The notes under the pieces were generated by a model that was not told where the DNA came from, ran no database searches, and worked only from the letters and a program-made list of their open reading frames with translations. The translations under genes and the position numbers were made by a program. Of a stretch of DNA of 21,914 nt, positions 2,253 to 18,653 are shown piece after piece. The DNA comes from a virus, in the IMG/VR virus record IMGVR_UViG_3300049456_000026, positions 1-21,914 of that record. The stretch is one strand, 5' to 3'. How positions within the stretch are numbered: the first letter of the stretch is position 1; each line of letters starts with the position of its first letter.

Positions 2253-3167
2253 ATGCCCGTCGCACTTAGTCAAATCAAAGACCTCCTACTTCCTGGCCTG
2301 TGGGGAATTGACGGCCGCTATCCCATGATCGAGCGGCAGTGGACCCAGATTTTCAAACAGGTCGACTCCAACATGTCGCTGGAGCGCCGGGCCGCGATGC
2401 GTTACCTCGGTTACGCCCAGCTCAAGAACGAGGGCGGCGTCACCGCGACCGACAACAACAGCGGTCAGCGCTATATCTACAATGCTCAACATTTTGAGAT
2501 CGGGTTGATGTACAGCATCACCCGCCCCGCCATCGATGACAATTTGTACAAGGGCGAGTTCGGGCCGAACAACGATGGTCTGATGGAGGCGTTCAAAGAG
2601 ACGGAAGAGGTCTACGCCGCGAACATCCTGAACAACGGCACCACGTTTAACACCACGGTGCAGGGCGATGGCGTTGCGCTCTTCTCGACCGCGCACCCGA
2701 TCGATGGCGCGACCATCGCCAATCAGCCGTCGCCGGACGTCTCCTTGAACGAGACATCGCTCCTCAATGCCGCGATCTCGATCCGGTCGACCTGGAAGAA
2801 CAACGCCGGCCTGAAGATTCACGCACGCGGCCAGAAGCTGATCGTGCCGGCGAACCTGGAGCCGATCGCGGCCCGCCTCTTTAAGAGCGAGCTGCGCGTT
2901 GGCACCGGCAACAATGATATCAACGCAGTCAAGGAAATGGAGCAGTCCTTCAAGGACAACTACATGGTCTATGACTACCTGACGTCGTCCTTCGCGTGGT
3001 TCGTGCTGACCAACCATCCTGGCCTCGTGTTTTTCAACCGGAAGGCCTTTGAGTCCGACATGTCGGTGGAATTTTCGACGGATAACCTATTGGTCAAAGG
3101 TTATCAGCGCTATGTGCCGAGCTATTACGACTGGCGGCACATTTACGGCACCTTCCCGACCTCGTGA
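2253..3167 (+). CDS. Major capsid protein
   Basis: 304 residues with a strong ribosome site, AGGAGG at 2238-2243, nine bases before the ATG, as expected for the most abundant virion protein. Segments typical of phage major capsid proteins of the Mu gpT-like/HK97-fold group are visible: a charged N-terminal helical region, DGVALFSTAHP (140-149), a KLIVPANLEPIAARLFKS strand-helix (195-212), then NDIN (221-224), and a C-terminal YDWRHIYGTF. The length fits a capsid protein without a cleaved scaffold or protease domain. No separate protease or scaffold gene is seen downstream, so these would have to lie upstream of the window. Neighbours on both sides are decoration-like proteins, consistent with a head module. 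HK97 fold is inferred from the family and not shown by the sequence alone. Confidence 0.8.
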   Translation: MPVALSQIKDLLLPGLWGIDGRYPMIERQWTQIFKQVDSNMSLERRAAMRYLGYAQLKNEGGVTATDNNSGQRYIYNAQHFEIGLMYSITRPAIDDNLYKGEFGPNNDGLMEAFKETEEVYAANILNNGTTFNTTVQGDGVALFSTAHPIDGATIANQPSPDVSLNETSLLNAAISIRSTWKNNAGLKIHARGQKLIVPANLEPIAARLFKSELRVGTGNNDINAVKEMEQSFKDNYMVYDYLTSSFAWFVLTNHPGLVFFNRKAFESDMSVEFSTDNLLVKGYQRYVPSYYDWRHIYGTFPTS

Positions 3168-4206: not shown

Positions 4207-4434
4207 ATGGGTCATACAAAACATCACAAGAAGGCCAAGGGCGGCCGGGTCGAGTACAACGCCAAGGGCTCCAACGTCATGGAGGAAGCTCACGAGAAGG
4301 CCGGCGGCGGCGCAGTGACGAAAGCCCTCGGCGGCGGGGTGCCCGGCAAGAAATCCGGCGGGCGCATTTCCAAGGCCCGTGGTGGCGGCGTCGGCGCCGA
4401 CAAGCACCCTTTCAGCTCGGCACACCGGGGGTAG
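4207..4434 (+). CDS. Gly/Lys-rich small phage protein, N-terminal part of a frame-split gene
   Basis: 75 codons from the ATG at 4207 (AAGGAG at 4194-4199) to TAG at 4432-4434. The product is very basic and low in complexity: a His/Lys-rich start MGHTKHHKKAKGGR, then GGG and RGG-like repeats (KALGGGVPGKKSGGR, ARGGGVGADKHPF). It looks disordered and able to bind nucleic acid or coat the virion. It stops in frame at a G5 run (4427-4431), immediately followed in the -1 frame by a conserved-looking reading frame that has no start codon of its own. The two parts probably make one protein through frameshifting, or the gene has been broken by loss of one G. Confidence 0.65.
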   Translation: MGHTKHHKKAKGGRVEYNAKGSNVMEEAHEKAGGGAVTKALGGGVPGKKSGGRISKARGGGVGADKHPFSSAHRG

Positions 4435-4622
4435 AGTGCGCCGCCTCCGGTGGGTGGATCAAGGGAGCCATCAAGCATCCCGGTGCTCTGCACCGGGCTT
4501 TGCATGTTCCAGAGGGTGAGAAAATCCCGGCCAAGAAGATGGCGAGCGCCGCGCATTCGGATAACCCGCGCATGAAGCGCATGGCCAATCTGGCCAGGAC
4601 GCTCAAGGGATTGCATCACTAA
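4431..4622 (+). CDS. C-terminal part of the frame-split small basic protein
   Basis: In the -1 frame relative to the preceding gene, 63 codons run to TAA at 4620-4622. The product contains GGWIKGAIKHPGALHRAL, then VPEGEKIPAKK and ANLARTLKGLHH, a pattern I recognise from small basic phage proteins. No ATG, GTG or TTG occurs in this frame between 4431 and the conserved WIKGAIKHPG stretch; the first TTG (4500) and ATG codons lie inside or after it. The TAA overlaps the next ATG (TAATG), so the frame end is used for coupling. A -1 slip of a GGG-decoding tRNA in the G5 run 4427-4431 would join it to the upstream part (~137 residues). Start coordinate given is the first codon after such a slip. Confidence 0.55.
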   Translation, partial: VECAASGGWIKGAIKHPGALHRALHVPEGEKIPAKKMASAAHSDNPRMKRMANLARTLKGLHH

Positions 4623-4966
4623 TGCAGCCGATCTATGTGACTCTCAATTCGTCATCGACCGGCACGCCGACGTCGTGGAAACTCGCCAATTGGCAAGCCA
4701 CGCCATTTAACGCGACGTTCGCGGTGATCGCCAATAGCACCAGCTCTTTCAACATCGACCTGACCTATGAGGACCCGACCGGGGTCTATCCCAACCCAAA
4801 TTCCAGCTCGCCGACCGCGTTCTCTCTGATCTCAAGCGGATCGAGTTCGCAGGTTGTCGTGCCGTCGAGCTTCATGCCGTTTGCCGGGTACAGGTATGCC
4901 ATCAATGCCATCAGCTCGGTCGGCGGCAAAGTGCAGTTCATCTATCTGCAGGCCGGAATCGGGTGA
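4622..4966 (+). CDS. Small beta-rich virion-type protein
   Basis: 114 residues, ATG overlapping the upstream stop (TAATG). It begins MQPIYVTLNSSSTGTPTSW and is rich in Ser, Asn and aromatic residues. Short predicted strands (ATFAVIANSTSSFNIDLTY, GKVQFIYLQAG) fit a single jelly-roll or Ig-like domain. No motif for catalysis or transport is present. Small proteins like this follow the capsid genes in several podovirus-like genomes and are usually listed as structural or hypothetical. The stop is followed by a 126-base non-coding stretch. Confidence 0.65.
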   Translation: MQPIYVTLNSSSTGTPTSWKLANWQATPFNATFAVIANSTSSFNIDLTYEDPTGVYPNPNSSSPTAFSLISSGSSSQVVVPSSFMPFAGYRYAINAISSVGGKVQFIYLQAGIG

Positions 4967-5001
4967 ATGGAACGGCATCACCATCATCAGCGTTTCACAT
5001 G

Positions 5002-5030
5002 CATCATGCTAATCGTCGATGTGCATGATG
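5002..5030 (+). repeat. 8-bp inverted repeat in the 4967-5092 gap
   Basis: CATCATGC (5002-5009) and GCATGATG (5023-5030) are perfect inverted copies around a 13-base spacer. They lie in the 126-base interval between two small structural genes, which also has CAT/CAC-rich direct repeats (around 4975-4990 and 5034-5050). No T-run follows, so this is not a classic terminator. It could be an operator or an mRNA processing or stability element. An open frame through this gap would give a His-rich leader, which I do not believe is coding. Confidence 0.4.
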
Positions 5031-5092
5031 GCCGTCACCATCGTCATCGGCGCAGATACGTCATCTTCCTCACTGCAAACAGGAGAAGTCAT

Positions 5093-5410
5093 TTGGCCAA
5101 TGTCATCGTAACTGTAGGACACACCGTGTCGTTCACCCTGGTTTTCCTCGACCAGAACGGCAATCCGATGCGGAGCACCCCGGTGCCGGATGCGACGCCG
5201 ACCTGGAGCGATACCACGCCGGCCACCGGGACACTGACGCCGGCACCGAGCGGGTTGACCGCAACTGAAATCGCCAATGCGATCGGGACCGATACCGTCA
5301 ATGTCTCGCTCGCGGTTGGCGGAACGAGCTTTACCGGTACCATCGATCTTACCGTGCAGGATGTGCCGCAGGTGCTCACGAGCGTCCAGATCGCGGCGAC
5401 CGTCGCGTAA
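5093..5410 (+). CDS. Ig-like domain small phage protein
   Basis: 105 residues from a TTG start at 5093, chosen because AGGAG (5081-5085) stands at ideal spacing and the upstream in-frame extension is a His/Arg-rich non-protein-like sequence. The product MANVIVTVGHTVSFTLVFLDQNG has the start of a bacterial Ig-like (BIG-type) fold: an N-terminal strand, a Pro/Thr-rich loop region with a Trp (PTWSDTTPATGTL), and closing strands (DTVNVSLAV, TGTIDLTVQDVP). Ig-like domains are common on phage capsids and tails as surface decorations. It resembles in type, but not in clear sequence, the ~98-residue proteins at 9667-9963 and 11756-12049. Confidence 0.68.
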   Translation: MANVIVTVGHTVSFTLVFLDQNGNPMRSTPVPDATPTWSDTTPATGTLTPAPSGLTATEIANAIGTDTVNVSLAVGGTSFTGTIDLTVQDVPQVLTSVQIAATVA

Positions 5411-18143: not shown

Positions 18144-18653
18144 ATGACCTGTCCGTCCGTCGTGCGAAACGCAAAACCTGCCGACAGGCAGGAAATCTGG
18201 CGGCTCTTCCTGCAGGGGCATCGCGAGAACGGCCAGTTCACGCTCGCGCCCGAGAAGGTTGATTGGTTTCTCAATCGCGCACTCTTTCCCGAACTCATTC
18301 CGGAATGGGATAGCGGCGCACGCGGCGTCGTTGGCGTCATCGGCGATGTCGGGAAGTTGGAGGCGCTCGCCGTGCTGTTCATCGGCACCTTCTGGTACTC
18401 GCATGATCGGCATCTGGAGGAATACATCGTCTATGTCGATCCGGAGTGTCGGCGCTCGCATCATGCCGTCTCCCTGGTCTCATGGATGAAGGCGCAGAGC
18501 GACCGCATCCGCGTGCCGCTCGTGACCGGCATCATCAGCAATGAGCGCACCGAGGCGAAGTGCCGGCTCTATCGCCGACTGGTGCCGAAGATCGGCGAGT
18601 TCTTCCTCTATGGGGGCAGCGTGCGCGCATCGAGCGCGGCGATTGCAGCGTAA
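18144..18653 (+). CDS. GNAT-like N-acetyltransferase
   Basis: 169 residues; ATG four bases after the previous stop with AGGA upstream. The order of elements fits the GNAT fold: an N-terminal VRNAKPADRQEIWRLFLQGH (beta1-alpha1), a central LEALAVLFIG strand, EEYIVYVDPECRRSHHAVSLVSWM (92-115) as beta4-alpha3 with a degenerate acetyl-CoA loop (RRSHHA in place of R/Q-x-x-G-x-G/A), and C-terminal ISNERTEAKCRLYRRLVPKIGEFFLY. Known for the family: transfer of acetyl from acetyl-CoA to an amine. The loop lacks the usual glycines, so activity may be reduced or the substrate unusual. Such genes recur between tail and internal protein genes of podovirus-like phages; the substrate is unknown. Confidence 0.68.
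   Translation: MTCPSVVRNAKPADRQEIWRLFLQGHRENGQFTLAPEKVDWFLNRALFPELIPEWDSGARGVVGVIGDVGKLEALAVLFIGTFWYSHDRHLEEYIVYVDPECRRSHHAVSLVSWMKAQSDRIRVPLVTGIISNERTEAKCRLYRRLVPKIGEFFLYGGSVRASSAAIAA

Follow-up and report, generated by a model that had tools for sequence, protein, structure and literature searches.

A proposed −1 ribosomal frameshift that would join a VP2-like domain to a small basic protein of uncultured phages

How can a conserved reading frame be translated when it has no start codon of its own? The question arises in a fragment of an uncultured phage from a metagenomic contig, a bacterial virus known from environmental DNA alone; we refer to the whole stretch analysed, 21,914 nucleotides, as the window. 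A short gene for a basic protein begins with ATG at 4207 and runs for 75 codons to TAG at 4432-4434, directly after GGGGG at 4427-4431, and the −1 frame reads ...PGVECAASGGWIKGAIKHPGALHRALHVPEGEKIPAKKMASAAHSDNPRMKRMANLARTLKGLHH and terminates at TAA 4620-4622. An earlier note had described this 75-codon frame, its stop behind the G run and a −1 continuation to a coupled stop, and direct reading of the letters confirmed each part. The features needed below are as follows.

2253-3167, plus strand: major capsid protein, Mu gpT-like (PF10124, phrog_371); the basic gene lies two genes behind it.
4207-4434, plus strand: zero-frame gene for a 75-residue basic protein rich in Lys, Gly and His (MGHTKHHKKAKGGRVEY...GADKHPFSSAHRG), defined by its open frame and aligned relatives.
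4407-4413, plus strand: slippery heptamer C_CCT_TTC within the codons CAC CCT TTC (His-Pro-Phe), the proposed −1 frameshift site.
4413-4622, plus strand: −1 frame extension of 69 residues (QLGTPGVECAASGGWIKG...LHH, then stop), start-less after the slip site and with divergence biased to third positions.
4427-4431, plus strand: G5 run adjoining the zero-frame stop, unconserved and probably not the slip site.
4455-4619, plus strand: VP2-like domain (WIKGAIKHPGALHR...), which hhalign relates to SSV1 VP2 and to ORF9 of Thermus virus IN93.
4622-4966, plus strand: next gene, whose ATG overlaps the TAA of the −1 frame (TAATG).

The ORF after these, at 4967-5410, has a strongly His/Arg-rich N-terminus (MERHHHHQRF...HDGRHHRHRRRY), and its real start may be further downstream.

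We examined the −1 frame in the window and in the related loci that form class A with it (n = 16: the window, L002-L006, L008, L011-L014, L032, L069, L229, L253 and L358). In the window, the −1 frame from the slip region to the Trp of the domain is devoid of ATG, GTG, TTG, CTG and ATT/ATC/ATA. Between slip site and domain, 15 of the 16 class-A loci have no ATG, GTG, TTG, CTG or ATT; the exception, L013, carries one TTG that overlaps its stop, and two other members carry a single ATC or ATA. Over the first 33 domain codons of the 16 loci, pairwise differences at −1-frame codon positions 1, 2 and 3 numbered 545, 311 and 1984, and the median dN/dS of this frame was 0.10. By these sequence comparisons the domain is under strong purifying selection in the −1 frame. 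Collectively, the position-biased divergence, the low dN/dS and the scarcity of starts indicate that the extension is selected as protein without a normal start. The impression in the earlier note that the second half is conserved and without its own start is thus upheld, both by relatives in IMG/VR and by the start-codon scan.

Relatives of the domain in IMG/VR numbered 237 in a first scan and 481 and 529 in later scans. After removal of near copies at 97% identity over 240 bases around the domain, 197 non-redundant occurrences in viral contigs were sorted by frame and start codon, and three arrangements emerged. The domain may be continuous with the upstream basic region in one frame (L029, L379, L089), it may form a gene by itself, start codon included (L034, L036 and L041 among others, or L024, L350 and L362, whose ATG overlaps the stop before it), or it may lie without a start, in another frame, immediately behind the basic gene. 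Among the 197, loci of the last kind without an ATG required a −1 shift in 45 cases versus a +1 shift in 3 (L129, which resembles an indel within the basic gene, L243 and L271). The window and L032 are additional to this count and also stand in the −1 relation, their in-frame ATGs lying far upstream. Comparison with homologues for an uninterrupted frame, as the earlier note had proposed, had a divided outcome: some lineages are continuous and others have separate genes. Separate genes with their own start, which it had considered adverse to a frameshift, do occur in the six loci named, but these retain an ATG that the class of the window lacks.

Further members were found at the margins of this survey. 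In L166, on the minus strand, the domain is in the frame of the basic gene but past a TAG, with no start between, as might result from readthrough, error or decay. In L243 and L247 the domain follows the basic gene in the +1 frame, and no start codon was found for it. Outside IMG/VR the domain gave one phage match, one plasmid match and two genome contigs, and the basic protein had no cultured relatives among 50,697 phage records. Near the end of the record of Tunturiibacter phage Tunturi_3 lies a VP2-like ORF (L417; PP885686.1, 97456-97584) that has an ATG of its own and no annotation. A tree of the domain, built to count the origins of each recoding type, had too few columns for this purpose and left 94 of its 174 inner branches unresolved.

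The heptamer C_CCT_TTC lies within the overlap of the two frames, in the frame needed for tandem −1 slippage (X_XXY_YYZ), and is the sole in-frame XXXYYYZ sequence among the last 30 zero-frame codons of the window. It precedes the G run by 13 bases and is invariant in all 16 class-A loci, and the codon before it (His, Asn or Ser) ends in C in every one. When the class-A nucleotide sequences were aligned over the stretch between slip site and domain, the heptamer stood out as the only long invariant block. The share of CCT among Pro codons is 6% in the window and 9.9% in the pooled loci (1,214 Pro codons), and judged from the aligned sequences the conservation of the heptamer is far beyond what codon usage would lead one to expect, even given shared ancestry. 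At the equivalent Pro-Phe position, C_CCT_TTC was absent from all tabulated class B, class C, fused and separate relatives. Alignment of the basic protein with its relatives showed common GG, G, R, D and PFSSA positions. L020 has C_CCT_TTT at the homologous Pro-Phe codons (near 2898); a −1 TAG follows immediately, so the shift in L020 must be further downstream.

These observations are very likely explained by programmed −1 ribosomal frameshifting at C_CCU_UUC (4407-4413), with a 75-residue and a 138-residue form as the predicted products. The reading draws on the frame relation, the absent start, the invariant heptamer, the purifying selection and the continuous-frame homologues; we infer from these sequence features both that frameshifting would occur and that it would do so at some rate. 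Ribosomes that stay in frame would read six further codons, stop at TAG 4432 and release the 75-residue basic, probably disordered protein. In some ribosomes tRNA-Pro would re-pair from CCU to CCC and tRNA-Phe from UUC to UUU, entering the −1 frame and yielding a 138-residue product (69 + 69) with a C-terminal VP2-like DNA-binding domain. The predicted junction-spanning peptide of the long form is HPFQLGTPGVECAASGGWIK. In published E. coli assays, UUN codons in the A site and all-pyrimidine heptamers are among the kinds more prone to frameshifting (PMC4066793), and by these rules C_CCU_UUC itself would be expected to slip efficiently. The proposal in the earlier note of a −1 shift uniting the two halves, with a short and a long form, gains support from the recurrence of the same start-less −1 arrangement in many independent contigs.

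We also looked for stimulators around the slip site. RNAalifold gave no consensus structure downstream of the heptamer in class A (only −0.57 kcal/mol). Folding z-scores were mildly negative (mean −0.89 at +12) but equally low at other places, and pairing of own versus swapped arms reached only p = 0.016 in what is a weak test. Several class-A loci, most clearly L002 and L229, have stable hairpins a few bases past the heptamer. By eye, a GG-rich stretch lies ~20 nt upstream of the slip site, where it doubles as code for the GGG motif.

The earlier note had placed the slip at the G5 run, with GGG in the P site before TAG. This GGG could re-pair fully one base back, and class-B relatives seemingly use such a site (G_GGG_GAR), but in class A only L069 has the run in common with the window; there are four Gs in L006 and L358, and most other members lack a run at that place. 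All class-A loci nevertheless retain C_CCT_TTC and the identical frame relation, and a shift at the G run of the window is accordingly very improbable. We give similarly little credence to translation of the domain as a separate cistron, with ribosomes re-initiating at an unusual start codon close to the zero-frame stop. The lineages with a separate gene, some with overlapping starts, and the TTG of L013, a locus where re-initiation may take place, are in keeping with it. Yet the common start codons listed above and ATT are missing between slip site and domain from the window and from 14 of the 15 other class-A loci, and re-initiation would leave the invariant heptamer unexplained.

The second suggestion of the earlier note was that one G had been lost, in the phage or in the assembly, which would make the second half a remnant. 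In its favour, the contig is metagenomic and L129 seems to carry an indel within its basic gene; however, dozens of contigs from different samples have the same −1 relation, unrelated contigs that differ in sequence at this point require the same shift, and dN/dS in the −1 frame is about 0.1. The excess of −1 loci in contigs from many samples excludes sequencing error as a general explanation, and assembly error or indels as a general account are likewise ruled out by relatives with the same relation. For the window itself, a lost G is scarcely credible.

Other loci may reach the domain by other signals. A second class of 26 non-redundant loci, with L016, L021, L092, L115, L155, L168, L182, L202, L258 and L276 among its members, conserves a G_GGG_GAG site, which in every locus stands 48 bases ahead of the Trp. 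Here NNG GGG GAG TCR TAA GCC takes the place of the heptamer, with TCC TGA in two loci, and the 16-base pattern GGGGGAGTCRTAAGCC was matched in 46 viral contigs. On slipping at G_GGG_GAG, tRNA-Gly would re-pair fully and tRNA-Glu only through a G-U pair. L270 has G_GGG_GAA. In L018-L020 and L022 the overlap contains GCT TTY, and in L017 CCT TAG. L271 has CCC_TAA around 2966-3020, where a +1 shift could unite basic and domain parts; in its +1 sense it resembles what has been published for Listeria phage PSA, in which +1 shifts take place on a proline codon (PMC5009743). As recoding sites, G_GGG_GAA, GCT TTY, CCT TAG and CCC TAA are leads only.

The identity of the extension was addressed by profile comparison. 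In hhalign the domain matched SSV1 VP2 with E 4e-7, 33% identity and a score of 37.4 (best of 100 shuffles 14.8), and Thermus virus IN93 ORF9 with E 2e-6 and a score of 33.9 (best of 100 shuffles 13.6). The matches span about 57 columns and a W...A.K.PG pattern is common to both sides; on this profile evidence the C-terminal domain and SSV1 VP2 are homologous along the full length. Of 62 members collected here, 53 matched the Pfam family PF25632 (Fusellovirus VP2) with E values of at most 0.1. Neither the window (16.3 bits) nor any relative scored singly reached the gathering score of 27 bits, L076 with 26.7 being the best of ten, and we therefore call the domain VP2-like and not VP2. A fold search with the domain model (mean pLDDT 71) returned only uncharacterised proteins of uncultured phages from BFVD and nothing useful from the PDB. 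SSV1 VP2 binds DNA and is present in virions, and homologues of it were previously reported in unrelated archaeal and bacterial viruses (both PMC4158269, PMC9608457).

By tblastn, the capsid protein is related to those of Pelagibacter, Roseobacter, Caulobacter and cyanobacterial phages, about 50-65 kb in size. The likeliest function would be that of a virion or genome-organising protein, only some copies of which carry the DNA-binding domain, a reading on which we are evenly balanced. Elsewhere in the window, a 75-residue ORF at 734-961 matches the Pfam Acb2/Tad1 hairpin domain PF24729 (E 1.9e-16), a family whose name comes from anti-CBASS and anti-Thoeris sponge proteins, and a gene for a GNAT-type acetyltransferase (18144-18653; phrog_1249, E 1.2e-6) stands amid structural genes.

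Frameshift extensions of phage structural proteins are already known. Lambda-type tail assembly chaperones G/GT depend on a −1 frameshift shortly before a small gene ends. The present gene is similar in this, and its short form would probably be in excess; unlike G/GT it lies behind the capsid gene, in a setting whose capsid relatives are those given above, and it had no PHROGs or Pfam match of the tail assembly chaperone kind. Coat protein extensions are made by −1 shifts in T7/T3 gene 10, Lactobacillus phage A2 and Listeria phages A118/A500, and by a +1 shift in PSA (PMC5009743). There too a gene of the structural region gives a normal and a C-terminally extended product through a frameshift near its end, but the base there is a coat protein and the extension Ig-like, whereas here the base is a small Lys/Gly/His-rich protein and the extension VP2-like. 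SSV1 VP2 and IN93 ORF9 are stand-alone genes, whereas here frameshifting or fusion would attach the homologous domain to a basic region. In the open-access papers searched we found no description of the gene family, of its slip sites or of a VP2-like domain added by frameshifting, although an earlier account may exist elsewhere.

Supported by comparative evidence from multiple sequences, this is probably an undescribed frameshift gene family for tailed phages, beyond the tail-chaperone and coat-protein cases, and it connects tailed phages with a DNA-binding protein from archaeal virus particles. Tentatively, and with confidence a little short of even, we suggest that a widespread family has evolved recoding signals of different kinds several times over (−1 at C_CCT_TTC, −1 at G_GGG_GAR, possibly −1 at GGCTTTY and +1 at CCC_TAA) that place the VP2-like domain on a fraction of the basic protein, the ratio of tagged to untagged protein being selected, perhaps as a means to condense or organise the genome once packaged. 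The several natural slip sites seem to be solutions to one problem, which would make control of the protein ratio testable.
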